49,977 nucleotides of DNA. Origin: Candidatus Polarisedimenticolaceae bacterium. GTDB lineage: Bacteria > Acidobacteriota > Polarisedimenticolia > Polarisedimenticolales > DASRJG01. The stretch is taken from positions 1 through 49,977 of the forward strand of contig DASVAW010000132.1 in the NCBI GenBank assembly GCA_036376135.1, in the 5' to 3' direction. The notes under the pieces were generated by a model that saw only the letters and a program-made list of their open reading frames with translations, was not told the origin of the DNA and ran no database searches. Shown one piece after another: positions 41,400 to 48,553 of the stretch; the first letter of the stretch is position 1; every line of letters begins with the position of its first letter. A program made the translations under genes and the position numbers.

Positions 41400-41959
41400 G
41401 CGCGGCTCCTCGCTCGCCTGGCGCGGAACACGAGCAGGAAGATCCCGGCGAAGATGCCGATCACGAACAAGGCGAGCAGGGGGACGAGAACGGCGAGCAG
41501 CGTCATGAGTAGGGACCCTCCCAGTTCGAGCGTGGAGACCAGCGGGTTCGCGATCCCCGCGGTCGTGAACAACGAGAGCTTGCGCGTTCCGACCGTCAGG
41601 GCCTGGACCGCCCCCGCCGTGCCGCCCCCGGCGATCGCCGCGAGGGTCCAGCGCAGCCACGGATCGACGTCGGTGAGGACCGACGCCGAGGCGATCACGC
41701 CCGCCGCGACCGCCATCGGGCTCGCGGCCGCGTCGAGCAGGTGGTCGAGCCACGGGACGTAATAGGCGCCGATCTCGAGGATCGTCGCGACGGCGAGCGC
41801 GAGGAGCGCGGCGTCGTTCGCGACCCAGCCGAACGTCGGCGCGATCTCGAGGTAGCCGCCGCGGGCGGCCAGCCCGAGACCGAGCAGCGGCAGAAAGACG
41901 CGGAATCCGCACGCGGCGGAGAGACCGATCCCGACGCAAACGCTCAGGAGCGTGTCCAT
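41396..41959 (-). CDS. DUF4126 membrane protein
   Basis: A 187-residue protein with about six hydrophobic segments. The motif ACGFRVFLPLLGLGLAARGGYL followed by WLDHLLDAAASPMAVAAG is the DUF4126 pattern (here read from GFRVFLPLLGLGLA and LDHLLDAAASPMAVAAG). Function of the family is unknown. It precedes and overlaps the aminotransferase gene. Its start codon at 41959 lies in CCATGG, whose other strand also offers an ATG to the divergent dehydrogenase; ribosome site poor. Confidence 0.85.
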   Translation of the reverse strand: MDTLLSVCVGIGLSAACGFRVFLPLLGLGLAARGGYLEIAPTFGWVANDAALLALAVATILEIGAYYVPWLDHLLDAAASPMAVAAGVIASASVLTDVDPWLRWTLAAIAGGGTAGAVQALTVGTRKLSLFTTAGIANPLVSTLELGGSLLMTLLAVLVPLLALFVIGIFAGIFLLVFRARRARSRA

Positions 41960-42005
41960 GGAAAGGACTGTACCGCATGTGGCAGCGAACGCTACGCTGT
42001 CGCGC

Positions 42006-44702
42006 GTGGAACTCCGACTGAGCCTCGAAGCGCTCCTCGCCCCCGATCGCGTCCTCACGCGCCCGCTCGACCTCGCGGTCTACGCCACCGATGCGAGCCT
42101 CTACCGCATCCCGCCCTCGGCCGTCGTGCGCCCGAAGGACGTGGAGGAGATCCGCGGCCTGTTCGCCTTCGCGCGCCGGCAGAAGATCCCGCTCACCTTT
42201 CGCGCCGCCGGCACGAGCCTCTCGGGGCAGGCGCTCGGCACGGGAATCGTCGTCGACGTCTCGCGTCACTGGCGCCGCCTGGACGTCCTCGACGACGGCC
42301 GGCGGATCCGCGTGGCGCCGGGGGTGATCGGCGGGTTCGCGAACCGGGCGCTCGCCCGGTACGGAACCAAGCTCGGACCCGATCCCGCTTCCATCGACGC
42401 GTGCATGATCGGCGGCATCGTCGCAAACAACTCGTCGGGGATGTGCTGCGGGATCGAGCGCAACGCCTATCGCACCCTCGAGTCGCTGCAATTCGTGCTC
42501 CCCTCGGGGTCCGTGGTGGACAGCGGCCTCCCCCACGCCGGCGAGCGCCTGCGGGAGTCGGAGCCGGCGATCTGGAACGGGCTCGCCCGGCTGCGCGATC
42601 GGGTGCGCGGCGACGCCCCCCTCGCCGCGAAGATCGCGAGAAAATACCGCCTCAAGAACACGATGGGGTACCAGCTCAACGCGTTCGTGGACTTCCACGA
42701 CCCGCTCGACATCCTCTGGCACCTGGTCGTCGGCTCGGAAGGCACGCTCGCGTTCGTCGCGGAGGCGACCTTCCGGACCGTTCCCGACCTCCCCCACAAG
42801 GCGACGGGGCTCCAGTTCTACGAAACCGTCCACGCGGCCTGCCGCGCGATCGAGCCGCTCCGGGAGTCCGGGGCCGCGGCGCTCGAGCTGATGGACCGCG
42901 CCTCCCTCCGCGCGGTCGAGGGGAGGCCGGGCGTTCCGGCGTCCGTCTCGCAGCTCGGGAACGACGCCGCGGCGATCCTGGTCGAATACCAGGCGGCGGA
43001 CGCCGCGGAGCTGGATTCGGTGTCGGCCTCGCTCACACGCGACGCCGCCGAGCAGGGCGCGTTGTGGACGGTCCGGAAGGGGATCATCCCCTCCGTCGGC
43101 GCGCGCCGGCGCCGCGGCACCACGCTCGTGACCGAGGACGTCGTGTTCCCTCCCGAGCATCTCGCCGACGGCGTGCTCGGGCTGCAGGAGCTCTTCCGGA
43201 AGCACCGCTACGAGGACGCCGTCGTCTTCGGCCACGCGAAGGACGGGAACCTCCACTTCCTGCTCGCGCAGGGAATGGATGCCGACGGCGCCCGTCAGCT
43301 GGAGTCCTTCACGGCCGACCTCGCCGACCTCGTGATCGTGCGTCACGCGGGCGCGCTGAAGGCCGAGCACGGGACCGGGCGGAACATGGCCCCGTTCGTC
43401 GAGACCGAATGGGGAGCCGACGCCTACGCGGTCATGCGCGAGGTGAAGCGGCTGATCGACCCGGACGGGATCCTCAACCCGGGCGTGCTCCTCAACGACG
43501 ACCGCCGCGTGCACGTCTCCTCGCTCAAGACGCTTCCCCCGATCGAGGAGGAGGCCGACGCATGCATCGAGTGCGGGTTCTGCGAGCCGCGCTGCCCGAG
43601 CCGAGACCTCACCCTCTCGCCGCGGCACCGGATCCTCGTGCGGCGCGAACGCGCGCGCCTGCTCGAGGACGGCCTCGAGGACCAGGCCGTCGCGCTCGAG
43701 TCGGAGTCGGCGTACGACGTGCTCGACACCTGCGCGACCGACGGGTTGTGCGCGACCGCCTGCCCGGTCGCGATCGACACCGGCAAGCTCGTGAAACGGC
43801 TTCGAGCCGAGGGGCACGGCCCGATCGCGCGGACGACCGCAGCCGCGCTGGCGTCGGGCTTCCGCGTGGTCGAGCCCGCGGCGCGAATGGCCTTGCGACT
43901 CGGGCGTTCCGCCGCCTCCACCTTCGGCGACGCCGCGATCTCCGGGGCGACCTCCGCGCTGGGATTTCCGGAGTGGCTTCCCGATTCGCCCCCACCGGCG
44001 CCGCCGCTCCCGCGGACCACGCGCGAGGGGGCGGCCGCCGTGTACGTCCCGTCGTGCGTCAGCCGCATCGCCGGGGACGGCGAGCAGGAGTCCCTCGCGG
44101 CGACGATCGTGGCCGTCGCCGCGCGCGCTGGGATCGCGGTCTGGATCCCCGGCGACGTCGCCGGGAGCTGTTGCGGGATGCCGTTCGCATCGAAGGGATT
44201 CCCCCGCGAGGCGGCGGCGCTCGAACGCGCGTCCCACGCACGGATCGATCGCTGGACCCAAGGGGGGAAGCTCCCGGCCTTCACCGACACGAGCCCCTGC
44301 GCCCACCAATGGGGCGGCTCGGTCCTCGACGGCATCGCCTTCGCGCACGACGTGGTCCTGCCGCGACTGCCGATCCGGCGCCGCCTGCCGTCGGTGGCGC
44401 TGCACGCCGTCTGCTCGGCGCAAAAGCTCGGGCTCGACGCGAAGTTCCGCGCGATCGCGAGCGCGTGTGCGAGGAACGTGTTCGTTCCGCCCAGCGCCGG
44501 TTGCTGCGGCTTCGCCGGGGATCGCGGGTACCTGCACCCCGAGTTGACCGCCTCCGCGACCGCGGAGGAAGCGCGCGAGCTCGCCCACCGCGAGTTCGAC
44601 GGCTACTACGCGACCAGCCGAACGTGCGAGATCGGCCTCGAGCGCGCGACCGGATGGCCGTGGCGTTCGATCTGGCGACTGCTGGACGCGGCCTCGCGCT
44701 AG
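42006..44702 (+). CDS. FAD/Fe-S fused dehydrogenase (GlcD-GlcF / Dld-II-like)
   Basis: An 898-residue flavin- and iron-sulfur-containing 2-hydroxyacid dehydrogenase. The FAD-binding domain (about 20-240) begins VYATDASLYRIPPSAVVRP and includes RAAGTSLSGQALGTG; the FAD-oxidase C-terminal cap follows. Two 4Fe-4S motifs, CIECGFCEPRCPS (about 519) and CATDGLCATACPV (about 576), are followed by CCG-type motifs GSCCGMPF (about 720) and GCCGFAGDRGYLHPEL (about 832). It oxidises glycolate or D-lactate and passes electrons to quinone. The GTG at 42006 gives the family-like N terminus; ATG 41958 with AGGAG upstream is an alternative start. Confidence 0.9.
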   Translation: MELRLSLEALLAPDRVLTRPLDLAVYATDASLYRIPPSAVVRPKDVEEIRGLFAFARRQKIPLTFRAAGTSLSGQALGTGIVVDVSRHWRRLDVLDDGRRIRVAPGVIGGFANRALARYGTKLGPDPASIDACMIGGIVANNSSGMCCGIERNAYRTLESLQFVLPSGSVVDSGLPHAGERLRESEPAIWNGLARLRDRVRGDAPLAAKIARKYRLKNTMGYQLNAFVDFHDPLDILWHLVVGSEGTLAFVAEATFRTVPDLPHKATGLQFYETVHAACRAIEPLRESGAAALELMDRASLRAVEGRPGVPASVSQLGNDAAAILVEYQAADAAELDSVSASLTRDAAEQGALWTVRKGIIPSVGARRRRGTTLVTEDVVFPPEHLADGVLGLQELFRKHRYEDAVVFGHAKDGNLHFLLAQGMDADGARQLESFTADLADLVIVRHAGALKAEHGTGRNMAPFVETEWGADAYAVMREVKRLIDPDGILNPGVLLNDDRRVHVSSLKTLPPIEEEADACIECGFCEPRCPSRDLTLSPRHRILVRRERARLLEDGLEDQAVALESESAYDVLDTCATDGLCATACPVAIDTGKLVKRLRAEGHGPIARTTAAALASGFRVVEPAARMALRLGRSAASTFGDAAISGATSALGFPEWLPDSPPPAPPLPRTTREGAAAVYVPSCVSRIAGDGEQESLAATIVAVAARAGIAVWIPGDVAGSCCGMPFASKGFPREAAALERASHARIDRWTQGGKLPAFTDTSPCAHQWGGSVLDGIAFAHDVVLPRLPIRRRLPSVALHAVCSAQKLGLDAKFRAIASACARNVFVPPSAGCCGFAGDRGYLHPELTASATAEEARELAHREFDGYYATSRTCEIGLERATGWPWRSIWRLLDAASR

Positions 44703-45772
44703 GTTGCGAGGACCGCGACCCGGTACCACGCGTTGTTCTGGTACCCCTTCGCGTTCCAGATTCCCGCGGGATGCTCCGGCTGCCCGGACCCTGCGTCGTC
44801 CCACGCGCGGGCGACGATCGTCCCCGCACCCGGCGCGAGGCGCACGCCGGCGCGGAAGCGCGTCCACGACCACCTCGAGGCGCGACGCTCCAGCGTCGCC
44901 TCCACCCAGCTTCCGCCCGCGTCGCCGGAGATCTCGACGCGCGCGATCGTGCGTCCTCCGCCCACGAGCGCGACCCCCGAAACTTCGACGCGCCCCGCAG
45001 CGAGTTCCGCGTCGGGCGACGGCGACGTCACGATCGCGTTGACGGGGAACGCGCCGAGCATCGGCCCCGCCTCCGCGCCCGGTGCCGCGTCCGCAGGCAG
45101 CAGCCGGTAGGCCCTGCGCTGGAAGTAGTTGTCGCTCGGCTGCGCCTGAACGCGGATCCGCGAGAGCCACTTGACGCTGCGCGCGCCGATGTACCCCGGC
45201 ACGAGGGCCCGCAGCGGAGCGCCGTGCACCGCCTCCAGGGGCGCGCCGTTCATCCGGTCGGCGAGGAGCACCTCGCCCCCGACCGCCTTCTCGAGGGGGA
45301 TCGACCCTCCGAAGCCGAAGGTGTCCCCGTGCCGCTCGCAGAGGTCGAGCCCTTCGAAGGCGACGTGCGCGGCGCCGTCGCGCAACCCCGCGACCGCGAG
45401 CACGTCCGCGAGCGCGAAACCGCTCCAGGCCGCATTGCTCGCCGCCTCCGGGCCCCACGGGAGCTCGCCGGGGGTCGGCGCGACGGCCATCAGCTCGAGG
45501 CGTCGGTTTCCCGCGCAAGGCAACACCGCCTCGACGTCGCGTCGAGGAAGTCGCGCGAGGTCGTCGAGCGAGAGCACGAGCTCGCGGTCGACGAGCCCCT
45601 CCACGACGAGTCGGAACGCGGCGCGATCGATGTCGGGAACGTCGGCGTGGTTGCGCACGTAGAAAAGCGGCGTCGGCGTGACGGCCTGCGCACCGAGGAG
45701 ATCGAGCGGCGCGCCGCCGTTGAACGGAGCCTCGGAGCGCACCACGAACCGCGGGTGTTTTCCGAACCTCAA
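44699..45772 (-). CDS. Sulfite oxidase-like molybdenum enzyme
   Basis: A 357-residue molybdopterin oxidoreductase. The Moco-binding cysteine is C86 in AVLPCAGNRR, and the fold continues through YIGARSVKWLSRI and the C-terminal Mo-co dimerisation domain (YQNNAWYRVAV). There is no signal peptide, so no Tat export as in some bacterial SorA/YedY. It oxidises sulfite to sulfate in the most likely reading. The TTG start (45772) lies 4 nt beyond the stop of the cupin gene. Confidence 0.9.
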   Translation of the reverse strand: MRFGKHPRFVVRSEAPFNGGAPLDLLGAQAVTPTPLFYVRNHADVPDIDRAAFRLVVEGLVDRELVLSLDDLARLPRRDVEAVLPCAGNRRLELMAVAPTPGELPWGPEAASNAAWSGFALADVLAVAGLRDGAAHVAFEGLDLCERHGDTFGFGGSIPLEKAVGGEVLLADRMNGAPLEAVHGAPLRALVPGYIGARSVKWLSRIRVQAQPSDNYFQRRAYRLLPADAAPGAEAGPMLGAFPVNAIVTSPSPDAELAAGRVEVSGVALVGGGRTIARVEISGDAGGSWVEATLERRASRWSWTRFRAGVRLAPGAGTIVARAWDDAGSGQPEHPAGIWNAKGYQNNAWYRVAVLAT

Positions 45773-45776
45773 GCGC

Positions 45777-46352
45777 TCACCAGGGGTCGTAGCACAGGGT
45801 CCGTTCCCGTCGGGACCACGTGCCGTCGGCTTCGCGCGTGTAACACGCGCACTTGAGCAGCTCGGGACCGTACACGTGCAGCGTGAGCGCGGGCGCGTCG
45901 GCGGACGCGTTCCCGTAGACGTGGTGCTCGAACGGAGGGAAGATCGCGCCGGTGTCCCCGATGCGCGTCAGCTCGCGCGCCTGCGGCTCGAATCGCCACG
46001 AGCCGTCGCGCGAGTCGAGCACGCGATACGGCTCGGAGAACGTCGCCCCCGAGAGCACCCCCTCGACGCACCAGGAGCCGTCGTGGTCGTGCACGGGCGC
46101 GAACTGCCCCGGCCCCCATGCCATCGCCACGATCGAGAACCGGCCCTCGGGATCCCGGTGGATGAGGCGGCGCGCGTAGCGATCGGGGAAGGCGCGCGAG
46201 GCGGACGGCGGCAGGGTGACCCGCGCACCGGCGATGCGGGCGGCGAGCGCCTCGCGCACCGCGGAGGCGATGGCGGCGGGATCGCCGGCGTCGAGACATC
46301 GCCCGACGGCTTCGGCGAATCCGGACAGCGGGTTCGGGGCCGGTTCCGGCAT
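45777..46352 (-). CDS. Cysteine dioxygenase-type cupin
   Basis: A 191-residue cupin. The iron ligands are H88 and H90 in APVHDHDGSW, and H143/H144 in PPFEHHVYGN; the spacing fits cysteine dioxygenase or 3-mercaptopropionate dioxygenase. It converts cysteine to cysteine sulfinate with O2. Its partner gene is the sulfite oxidase, so sulfur released from cysteine sulfinate as sulfite could be oxidised to sulfate. Substrate (cysteine versus mercaptopropionate) not decided. Confidence 0.87.
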   Translation of the reverse strand: MPEPAPNPLSGFAEAVGRCLDAGDPAAIASAVREALAARIAGARVTLPPSASRAFPDRYARRLIHRDPEGRFSIVAMAWGPGQFAPVHDHDGSWCVEGVLSGATFSEPYRVLDSRDGSWRFEPQARELTRIGDTGAIFPPFEHHVYGNASADAPALTLHVYGPELLKCACYTREADGTWSRRERTLCYDPW

Positions 46353-46504: not shown

Positions 46505-48553
46505 GTGCCGAAACCGCTCCACACGATCCAGCCCGCCCGCCTTCGCCCGGGGACCACGCGCGACACGCTCCCCGCGCCGCGCCCTTCCGACCTCGCCGGC
46601 ACGCAGGCGGGCCACGTCCTCCGCGGGACGGCGCTCATCTTCTGGGACCCGAAGCGCCCCGGGAGAAAGCTCGACGCGATCGACACCGACCAGATCACTC
46701 CGGCCGCCGACTGCGTGTCGGAGAGCCTCGAGACTCTCGACGAACGCTGGAAGGCCGGATCGTTCCGGCACCTCATGCCCGACTTCCGCAAGCGCGTGCA
46801 CGCCGGCCAGACGTTCGTGATCGCGGGGGAGCGCTTCGCCATCGGCTCCTCGCGCGAGATGAGCCCCGCGGGGCTCAAGGGGGTCGCCGAGGAGGCCGGC
46901 CTCGAACTGGTGATCGTCTGCTCCCACAACATGGGAGACATCTTTCGGCGCAACAGCTTCAACCTCGGCCTGCACGTCGTGCAATGCCCCGAGGCGGTCG
47001 AGGACGCCCGCGACGGCGACGTCCTGACCTTCGACACCGCCTCCCGCGAGCTGGCCAACGAGACGCAGGGGAAACGTTACCTCCCCGTGCCGCTCACGCC
47101 GAAGGAGGACGAGATCCGCCGCTCCGGCGGGATCTTCGCGATCGGCCGCCGCGAGTTCCGCGACTCGGTGAAGCACGCGCCGCGGATCGTGTGGCCCGAC
47201 CCCGAAATCGCCCGGCGCCTCACCACCTCGGAGCAGATCCTCTGGGCGCACCGCGTGGACAAGGACGCCGAGGTCAAGGCGGGAACCACCGTACGCGTGT
47301 ACGCGGACCTCCTGCCCGCCAGCGACGGCACCGCCCCGTTCGCGATCCACACCTTCAACCAGATCACCGGAGGGACCTCGATCTTCCCGAGGCAGGCGGC
47401 GATCGCGAACGATCACTTCGTCTTCACCGGCGTCGACTCCGACGAGAAGCAGACCTCGATCGGTCGCGCGTTCGCGGCCGCGCAGGGGATGGAGAAACCG
47501 TATTACGCGACCCCCGGGGACGGCATCTTCCACTTCTATTTCCCCGAGCAGGGGCTCGTCGTCCCGGGGATGATGATCCCCGGCGCCGACTCGCATTCGC
47601 GCGCCTACGGCGCCTACGGCGCGATCGGCATCGGCGTCGGCTCGACGACGCTGGGATTCGGCTGGTCGACCGGGCACATCTACACGACGGTCGCCAAGCC
47701 GCGGCGCGTGGTTTTCACCGGCGCGCTGCAGCCCTGGGTCACCGGGAAGGACCTCGTCCTCGAGCTGCTGCGCCGCTGGGGGGCGAAGCAGTCCGAGGGG
47801 ATGAGCGTCGAATTCGTGGACGCGAAGGGACAGCTCCCGATCGCCTACCGCAACACCATCTGCAACATGATGGCCGAGGCGGAGAGCTGGAACGGGATCT
47901 TCGCCCCCGACGAGATCACGTACTCGTGGTTCCGCGCGAAGGGGATGGCCGACCTCCCTTACCCGCCGATCGCCCCGGGAGCGGACGTCGCGTGGGCGAT
48001 CGACGAGACACTCGCGCTCGACGGCGTCGTCACGATGATCGCGAAGCCGTTCAGCCCGGGGAACGCCTTCCCCGCGGAGGAGGTCGCGAGGGAGAAGCTC
48101 ACCTTCGACAAGGCGATGATCGGCTCGTGCACGAACGGCGGGTACGACGACCTGCTGTCCGCGGCGCTGGTGATCCGCGCCGCGCGGCAGTCGGGAGCGA
48201 AGAAGACGGCGACGGAGCTCGTGGTTTTCCCCGGCTCCGGCGGGGTGAAGCATCAGATCGAGCGCCCCGACGCGCGCCTGGGCGGCGAGAGCATCGCCGA
48301 GGTCTTCCGGTCGGTGGGAGGGGCGATCCGCCAGAGCTGGTGCGGCCCGTGTTTCGGCCAGGGACCCGACGCCCTCAGGCCGGGCCAACGCGCGATCACG
48401 TCATTCAACCGGAATTGGCAGAACCGCATGGGAGTGGGCGGCGAGGGGTACCTCGCGAGCCCCTCGGTCGTGGCCGCCAGCGCGATCCTGGGCTACATGG
48501 CCCCCCCGAGCGAGCTCGGGTTGTCCTGGGAGGCGGAGCGCTTCTCGGTCTGA
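46505..48553 (+). CDS. Aconitase-superfamily hydro-lyase with swapped domain order
   Basis: A 682-residue [4Fe-4S] hydratase. Residues about 55-220 are the LeuD/AcnA swivel domain (IDTDQITPA, then FAIGSSREMS in place of FGCGSSREHA, and HNMGDIFRRNSFNLGL). Residues about 260-660 are the LeuC-type catalytic part: PGADSHSRAYGAYGAIGIG, GSCTNG with C542, and WCGPCFG with C613 and C616 as cluster ligands. Usually the catalytic part comes first. The start is GTG with AGGGGG upstream. Substrate unknown: citrate/aconitate, homoaconitate and isopropylmalate are all possible. Confidence 0.88.
   Translation: MPKPLHTIQPARLRPGTTRDTLPAPRPSDLAGTQAGHVLRGTALIFWDPKRPGRKLDAIDTDQITPAADCVSESLETLDERWKAGSFRHLMPDFRKRVHAGQTFVIAGERFAIGSSREMSPAGLKGVAEEAGLELVIVCSHNMGDIFRRNSFNLGLHVVQCPEAVEDARDGDVLTFDTASRELANETQGKRYLPVPLTPKEDEIRRSGGIFAIGRREFRDSVKHAPRIVWPDPEIARRLTTSEQILWAHRVDKDAEVKAGTTVRVYADLLPASDGTAPFAIHTFNQITGGTSIFPRQAAIANDHFVFTGVDSDEKQTSIGRAFAAAQGMEKPYYATPGDGIFHFYFPEQGLVVPGMMIPGADSHSRAYGAYGAIGIGVGSTTLGFGWSTGHIYTTVAKPRRVVFTGALQPWVTGKDLVLELLRRWGAKQSEGMSVEFVDAKGQLPIAYRNTICNMMAEAESWNGIFAPDEITYSWFRAKGMADLPYPPIAPGADVAWAIDETLALDGVVTMIAKPFSPGNAFPAEEVAREKLTFDKAMIGSCTNGGYDDLLSAALVIRAARQSGAKKTATELVVFPGSGGVKHQIERPDARLGGESIAEVFRSVGGAIRQSWCGPCFGQGPDALRPGQRAITSFNRNWQNRMGVGGEGYLASPSVVAASAILGYMAPPSELGLSWEAERFSV

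Follow-up and report, generated by a model that had tools for sequence, protein, structure and literature searches.

The gene examined here, termed ACN1, lies on contig DASVAW010000132.1 of a Candidatus Polarisedimenticolaceae bacterium (assembly GCA_036376135.1), of which the stretch analysed, referred to below as the window, is 49,977 nucleotides long. It encodes a single-chain enzyme of the aconitase superfamily in which the swivel domain precedes the catalytic part, and which probably serves, together with a LeuA-like condensing enzyme (HMGL-420) and a LeuB-like dehydrogenase (DH3), in the elongation of 2-oxoacids.

The ACN1 gene and its product

The features of the gene, all on the forward strand, are listed below with the evidence for them in brackets. 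A stretch reading AGGGGGA is found 7-13 bases 5' of the GTG codon.

46505-48553, + strand: ACN1, single-chain swivel-first aconitase-superfamily hydro-lyase, 682 amino acids (aa), GTG start (open reading frame, Pfam, hidden Markov models (HMMs))
46667-47059, + strand: swivel domain (LeuD-like, domain 4), residues 55-185 (HMM built in this work; matches to 3vba, 1v7l and 2pkp)
46703-46726, + strand: substrate-recognition loop AADCVSES, residues 67-74 (alignment and conservation; role of the loop from the available part of PMC7308503)
46847-46861, + strand: S115-S116-R117-E118-M119, the GSSRE substrate-binding motif plus Met, S115 being the expected catalytic base
47222-48508, + strand: catalytic part (LeuC-like, domains 1-3), residues 240-668 (HMM built in this work; Pfam Aconitase)
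47582-47599, + strand: GADSHS motif, residues 360-365
48128-48130, + strand: C542, first [4Fe-4S] ligand (invariant in alignments)
48341-48352, + strand: C613 and C616 (CGPC), second and third [4Fe-4S] ligands

A preliminary description of the gene had placed the swivel domain ahead of the catalytic part and had found cluster cysteines 542, 613 and 616 to be intact. The domain order is seen both with Pfam, which matches Aconitase_C to residues 97-161 (27.0 bits, cut-off 22.8) and Aconitase to residues 248-663 (240.8 bits), and with the purpose-built HMMs. The three cysteines are invariant in 43 aligned relatives, as are D362, S363, H364, S115, S116, R117 and E118 (GSSREM being residues 114-119); this alignment, A2, comprises the window protein and 42 of 80 retained loci, restricted for size, with L082 omitted as its reading contains a stop. 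C542 is also kept in all ten rows of a further alignment, A1, which includes a second swivel-first family, SF2. As domain order, cluster ligands, GSSRE and Asp-Ser-His are all confirmed, these observations were correct, and both domains, the three cysteines, the Ser-Arg of GSSRE and the Asp-Ser-His together identify the protein as an aconitase-superfamily hydro-lyase. Since 186 relatives were confirmed, ACN1 is more than a chance open reading frame: it is a real, conserved iron-sulfur enzyme with a domain order that is less usual yet already known.

Locus counts given here refer to the best 80 of these 186 relatives plus the window. The best 80 show 69-80% identity, their sources being Acidobacteria, Chloroflexi, Eisenbacteria and a few other groups. 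This ACN1 family is a single clade (support 100/100) and stands as a subfamily in its own right in Acidobacteriota, Chloroflexota and Eisenbacteria. No description of this subfamily was found in the open-access literature, which is not proof of its being undescribed. SF2, around 30% identical to ACN1, is found in other Acidobacteriota, and the two may or may not share an origin, with values of 92/65 in the tree of the swivel domain and a p-AU of 0.463 in a test from which 16 of 57 rows were omitted for speed or for their long branches. Swivel-first proteins from proteobacterial plasmids nest inside SF2.

These plasmid-borne proteins (L229-L235), annotated as 'aconitase family' and around 650-670 aa long in a single chain, were found in Caballeronia, Variovorax, Roseomonas, Comamonas, Paraburkholderia and Microvirga. 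Their annotated neighbours include LysR regulators, a tripartite tricarboxylate transporter protein and RraA-like or CaiB/BaiF genes, and they are probably an uncharacterised catabolic hydro-lyase.

The closest known systems to ACN1 in sequence and fold are isopropylmalate isomerase (LeuC/LeuD, EC 4.2.1.33) and the archaeal isopropylmalate/citramalate isomerase, which share its domains, cluster ligands and GSSRE motif. All NCBIfam matches listed for ACN1 nevertheless fall below their cut-offs, the best being to LeuC/HacA-type models for the large part (LEU2, 245 of 610.65 bits; leuC, 158.6 of 560.25) and LeuD-type models for the small part (TIGR02087 LEUD_arch, residues 57-213, 70.3 bits, cut-off 108.95). 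In the predicted structure (mean predicted local distance difference test score 81.2, predicted template modelling score 0.83), the catalytic part most closely resembles the large subunits of methanogen isopropylmalate isomerase and homoaconitase (Z 38.2 each), with 4kp1 and 4kp2 the closest solved folds to this region; the closest solved large and small subunits (4nqy, 4kp1 and 3vba) are named isopropylmalate/citramalate isomerase. Unlike LeuC/LeuD, which are separate subunits in their bacterial form, ACN1 is one chain with the swivel domain first.

This order had been taken as a sign of a new substrate, but it is not diagnostic. The available part of PMC8184944 lists AcnB, type I AcnX and fungal isopropylmalate isomerase as '4-linker-1-2-3', and the same arrangement is found in SF2 and in the catabolic-looking proteobacterial proteins. 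In Escherichia coli AcnB, Aconitase_2_N (residues 168-382) is followed by Aconitase (472-818), and the ACN1 model is collinear with AcnB over residues 13-682 (Z 30.2, root mean square deviation 3.8, 592 residues); the two are, however, only 17% identical, ACN1 is without the HEAT-like N-terminal Pfam domain Aconitase_B_N, and its swivel domain is a LeuD-like Aconitase_C rather than Aconitase_2_N. Likewise ACN1 shares the single-chain order given for type I AcnX in the same excerpt of PMC8184944, but is 10-12% identical to 7cnp, 7cnq and 7d2r (Z around 15) and matches only Aconitase and Aconitase_C in Pfam, so that it falls outside the AcnX sequence family. The idea that domain order marks the substrate in the aconitase superfamily is thereby corrected. 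It had also been suggested that finding the order to be common, with a known substrate, would count against a changed activity; the order is indeed common, but no such substrate attaches to the ACN1 subfamily.

Two apparent active-site changes proposed at the same time, SREH to SREM and CGDSHT to GADSHS, are similarly ordinary variation. The residue following GSSRE is H, S or Q in the solved small subunits 3vba, 1v7l and 2pkp, and the portion of PMC7308503 consulted assigns substrate choice to a five-residue loop of the small subunit outside this motif. The D-S-H of the second motif is kept, and the large subunit of Methanocaldococcus jannaschii isopropylmalate isomerase reads GADSHT. The conclusion that the substrate is likely to have changed therefore loses its original reasons, though the view that ACN1 probably does not act on a textbook substrate in the textbook role gains support from gene context and co-occurrence.

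Partner genes and co-occurrence

HMGL-420 is around 410 aa long and has no recognised regulatory domain, Pfam showing the HMGL domain only; its best NCBIfam scores, under the cut-off, are to isopropylmalate synthase models, and its scores to homocitrate synthase models are also under the cut-off. DH3 exceeds the NCBI 3-isopropylmalate dehydrogenase cut-off in L140 and L142, as do its Chloroflexi counterparts in L057 and L069.

Mapping the neighbours of swivel-first proteins, as the preliminary description had suggested, revealed LeuA-like and LeuB-like partners near ACN1 in Chloroflexi and catabolic-looking clusters near the proteobacterial relatives. HMGL-420, a LeuB-like gene or both were found near ACN1 in 15 of 18 Chloroflexi-titled loci, often touching or overlapping: in L052, L057 and L061 the LeuB-like gene ends on the first base of ACN1, and in L050 and L055 ACN1 begins 7-8 bases beyond the end of HMGL-420. 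In L057 and L062, HMGL-420 overlaps the gene for the E2 component of a 2-oxoacid dehydrogenase, after which come E1 alpha and beta in L057. Elsewhere, HMGL-420 comes after a LeuB-like gene with overlapping frames in genome G033, and in family f45 (G074 and G211) DH3 and SF2 share a strand and are around 60-85 bases apart, measured from match to match. In family f14 (G022 and G068), where HMGL-420 is present but a swivel-first enzyme is not, separate LeuC-like and LeuD-like genes come after DH3 on its strand. Across Acidobacteriota no common operon was evident among the neighbours of HMGL-420 (20 stretches), nor among those listed for SF2 and ACN1 (20 stretches), and no pathway partner was found adjoining ACN1 within the window.

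Two copies of HMGL-420 are encoded by the window genome, G000 (C139:2022-3263 and C93:39697-40896), which are 57% identical over the match and perhaps differ in their acceptors. HMGL-420 adjoins an enoyl-CoA hydratase gene in L159, L164 and L165 (genomes G021, G035 and G036 respectively), and in L164 stands in a row with genes for enoyl-CoA hydratase, 3-hydroxyacyl-CoA dehydrogenase and thiolase.

Co-occurrence was assessed in the same set of 247 Acidobacteriota genomes, at least 90% complete, for every gene. ACN1 was found in 27 of these (including G020, where the match spans residues 273-682 only), SF2 in 58, HMGL-420 in 92, LeuC in 132 and IlvC in 128; DH3 was present in 65 at E values up to 1e-100, with weaker matches in 41 more (106 in all). 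All 27 genomes with ACN1 and 55 of the 58 with SF2 also have HMGL-420, and DH3 accompanies ACN1 in 25 of 27, such that ACN1 shows the co-occurrence with both partners by which membership of a common module was judged. ACN1 and SF2 were never found in the same genome (6.3 expected). Taking either swivel-first enzyme together, 82 genomes have it along with HMGL-420, 152 have neither, and 3 and 10 have only the swivel-first enzyme or only HMGL-420 (Fisher test, 7e-50, with relatedness ignored). Within seven families that hold both states, chosen by the authors with their members listed but their negatives incompletely so, both genes are present in 20 genomes, neither in 42 and one alone in none.

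Several observations weigh against a common module. Neither HMGL-420 nor DH3 lies near ACN1 in any of 63 non-Chloroflexi loci, the window included. Besides the 10 genomes with HMGL-420 and no swivel-first enzyme and the 3 with the converse, DH3 at the strict threshold is missing from 2 of the 27 genomes with ACN1 and from 27 of the 58 with SF2 (16 of the latter 27 having weaker matches), and 4 of the 65 genomes with DH3 are without HMGL-420. The f45 genomes, in which DH3 is close to SF2, have no HMGL-420 at the threshold used. The Fisher values take no account of relatedness between genomes, and the proteobacterial plasmid relatives of SF2 sit in catabolic-looking clusters without these partners, which means the swivel-first fold does not in itself fix the role of the protein.

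Relation to leucine synthesis and the substrate

The leucine-gene partners of ACN1 are the LeuA-like and LeuB-like genes, yet its own occurrence is independent of LeuC (both in 13 of 27 genomes, 14.4 expected) and of IlvC (12 of 27, 14.0 expected), two genes that are found together in 115 genomes. Where ACN1 is accompanied by LeuC, IlvC is present in 12 of 13 genomes, the exception being G129; where LeuC is absent, IlvC is missing in 14 of 14, and ACN1 is therefore not simply the missing enzyme of leucine synthesis. ACN1 thus seems to be kept where de novo branched-chain synthesis has been lost, and coexists with canonical LeuC elsewhere, a further departure from LeuC/LeuD. That such genomes would be auxotrophic for branched-chain amino acids is suggested by the missing IlvC rather than by growth. 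Annotation is likely to assign these genes to leucine synthesis, given that the NCBI name for DH3 is '3-isopropylmalate dehydrogenase' and the best scores of HMGL-420 are to isopropylmalate synthase. For 32 of the 85 genomes holding a swivel-first enzyme, in which LeuC and IlvC were both not found, such readings would be mistaken, as would any leucine prototrophy deduced on that basis.

Residues at three recognition sites, mapped from alignments rather than from ligand-bound structures, bear on the substrate. The five-residue loop already mentioned reads RYLVY in archaeal isopropylmalate isomerase, RYNLT in the Pyrococcus enzyme, PYLRT in homoaconitase and ADCVS in ACN1; among 43 relatives, C70 and S72 are each present in all and V71 is Val in 42 and Ile in one. 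V71 occupies the position of the Arg in M. jannaschii homoaconitase (YLRT). This Arg has a role in the recognition loop of MJ1271, and ACN1 is without the residue by which a homoaconitase would be recognised. At the five pocket positions of condensing enzymes named in the available text of PMC12961565, the residues of 21 HMGL-420 rows are A in 20, M in 18, V in all 21, C in 18 and H in all 21, compared to L/E/S/N/E in isopropylmalate synthase and H/R/T/S/H in homocitrate synthase; HphA likewise has Ala at the first of these positions. Of 15 Iso_dh rows, L144 and L147 are Icd-like paralogues, and 11 of the other 13 are Leu-Leu, as in E. coli LeuB (Icd having L-N), the remainder being Ile-Leu (L153) and Ile-Phe (L050). 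Together, the ACN1 loop, the HMGL-420 pocket and the DH3 helix point to a substrate bearing a nonpolar side chain.

ACN1 is thus probably a 2-alkylmalate/3-alkylmalate isomerase of a module that lengthens 2-oxoacids in three steps and is distinct from LeuABCD. This assignment is founded on its domain order and catalytic residues, its neighbourhood in Chloroflexi, the lock-step occurrence of HMGL-420 and DH3, and its independence of LeuC and IlvC. HMGL-420 would condense acetyl-CoA with a 2-oxoacid carrying a nonpolar side chain to give a 2-alkylmalate. ACN1 would then remove water, allow the alkylmaleate intermediate to turn, and add water back to form the 3-alkylmalate, with the swivel domain closing over the cleft, the cluster on C542, C613 and C616 acting as Lewis acid and S115 as general base, the role given to Ser642 of mitochondrial aconitase in the excerpt of PMC8184944. 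Oxidation and decarboxylation by DH3 would yield a 2-oxoacid one carbon longer, perhaps destined to become an acyl-CoA, in view of the overlap seen in some Chloroflexi between HMGL-420 and the E2 gene of a 2-oxoacid dehydrogenase. Three builds of the isomerase, namely ACN1, SF2 and separate LeuC/LeuD-like subunits, appear to be interchangeable. What is new here is the combination and its context, the chemistry and the architecture both being familiar.

More tentatively, Acidobacteriota and Chloroflexota may possess a dedicated 2-oxoacid homologation outside amino acid synthesis, one that is retained despite the loss of branched-chain synthesis and pairs a condensing enzyme without a recognisable regulatory domain with any of the three isomerase builds; it may act on a nonpolar 2-oxoacid outside LeuABCD use (such as ketoleucine, ketoisoleucine or phenylpyruvate) and feed a 2-oxoacid dehydrogenase to supply acyl-CoA for lipids or another metabolite. 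If the module is as proposed, it would be a widespread central pathway of abundant soil phyla. A parallel is provided by HphA, HphB and HphCD of cyanobacterial phenylalanine homologation, LeuA-, LeuB- and LeuCD-like enzymes that, according to the part of PMC12961565 available, lengthen a nonpolar 2-oxoacid outside leucine synthesis; there, however, the pathway is one of cyanobacterial secondary metabolism, whereas the ACN1 module is widespread in its phylum, and the comparison of residues concerns HphA. Methanogen homoaconitase is akin to ACN1 in class of chemistry, domain content and 2-oxoacid elongation context, but has two subunits and the loop Arg, where ACN1 is one chain with Val.

The main candidates for the substrate are larger side chains and, as a possible though somewhat doubtful special case of the elongation module, isopropylmalate itself, in a salvage role that, free of leucine feedback, converts valine-derived 2-oxoisovalerate to 2-oxoisocaproate as a source of leucine or isovaleryl-CoA. 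The latter would serve as the starter of iso-branched lipids. Retention of ACN1 in genomes without IlvC, the proximity of HMGL-420 to E2 and E1 genes in L057 and L062 (E1 in the former) and the nonpolar recognition residues are consistent with such salvage; however, the Ala of HMGL-420 in place of the Leu of isopropylmalate synthase indicates a larger side chain, and LeuC and IlvC are both present alongside ACN1 in 12 of its 27 genomes.

The same chemistry applied to citramalate, extending pyruvate to 2-oxobutyrate, is unlikely. The names of the closest solved subunits speak for it, but the small pocket residues of HMGL-420 (A, V and C) do not suggest a pyruvate-sized site, and a role in isoleucine synthesis would need IlvC, the absence of which from 15 of 27 ACN1 genomes rules it out in those.

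It is improbable that ACN1 simply fills in for a missing LeuC/LeuD as the isopropylmalate isomerase of de novo leucine synthesis, although its family scores are highest against LeuC- and LeuD-type models, LeuA- and LeuB-like genes adjoin it in Chloroflexi, DH3 and its counterparts exceed the 3-isopropylmalate dehydrogenase cut-off, and G000 has no LeuC above threshold and no PF00180 protein except DH3 (on C12). Replacement of LeuC was the first hypothesis raised by the Chloroflexi neighbourhoods, and was rejected on the LeuC and IlvC counts: ACN1 is not anti-correlated with LeuC, and IlvC is missing from all 14 ACN1 genomes without LeuC. Furthermore, HMGL-420, with its HMGL domain only, is without the pocket residues of isopropylmalate synthase, the His of E. 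coli LeuA included.

A catabolic hydro-lyase, to which HMGL-420 and DH3 would be linked only indirectly, is very doubtful: the clusters around the proteobacterial swivel-first relatives and the enoyl-CoA hydratase genes beside HMGL-420 in G021, G035 and G036 (joined in G035 by genes for 3-hydroxyacyl-CoA dehydrogenase and thiolase) would fit such a role, but ACN1 touches a dehydrogenase gene in Chloroflexi and the genes are present in lock-step within families. Finally, an aconitase, homoaconitase or Re-citrate-type enzyme of the tricarboxylic acid cycle, acting on a polar tricarboxylate, is in keeping with superfamily membership and the sub-threshold homocitrate synthase scores of HMGL-420, but was judged highly improbable given the separate aconitase of around 800 aa and usual domain order in G000, V71 in place of the homoaconitase Arg, Met, Leu or Cys in HMGL-420 in place of the homocitrate synthase Arg, and a DH3 without the Icd residues.

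Additional clusters and other genes of the window

Genome G013 carries LeuC-LeuD pairs of the archaeal type at two separate places, C6 and C57 (L120 and L128). Both pairs have an Iso_dh gene next to them, and one has an HMGL-like gene in addition; they possibly represent two elongation pathways in one genome.

Within the window, a cysteine dioxygenase-like gene (CDO_I) adjoins a sulfite-oxidase-like molybdopterin gene on the same strand (44699-46352, - strand), a possible cysteine sulfur oxidation pair. The gene at 41952-44702 on the + strand encodes a protein of 916 aa in which FAD-linked oxidase domains are fused to a 4Fe-4S dicluster domain.

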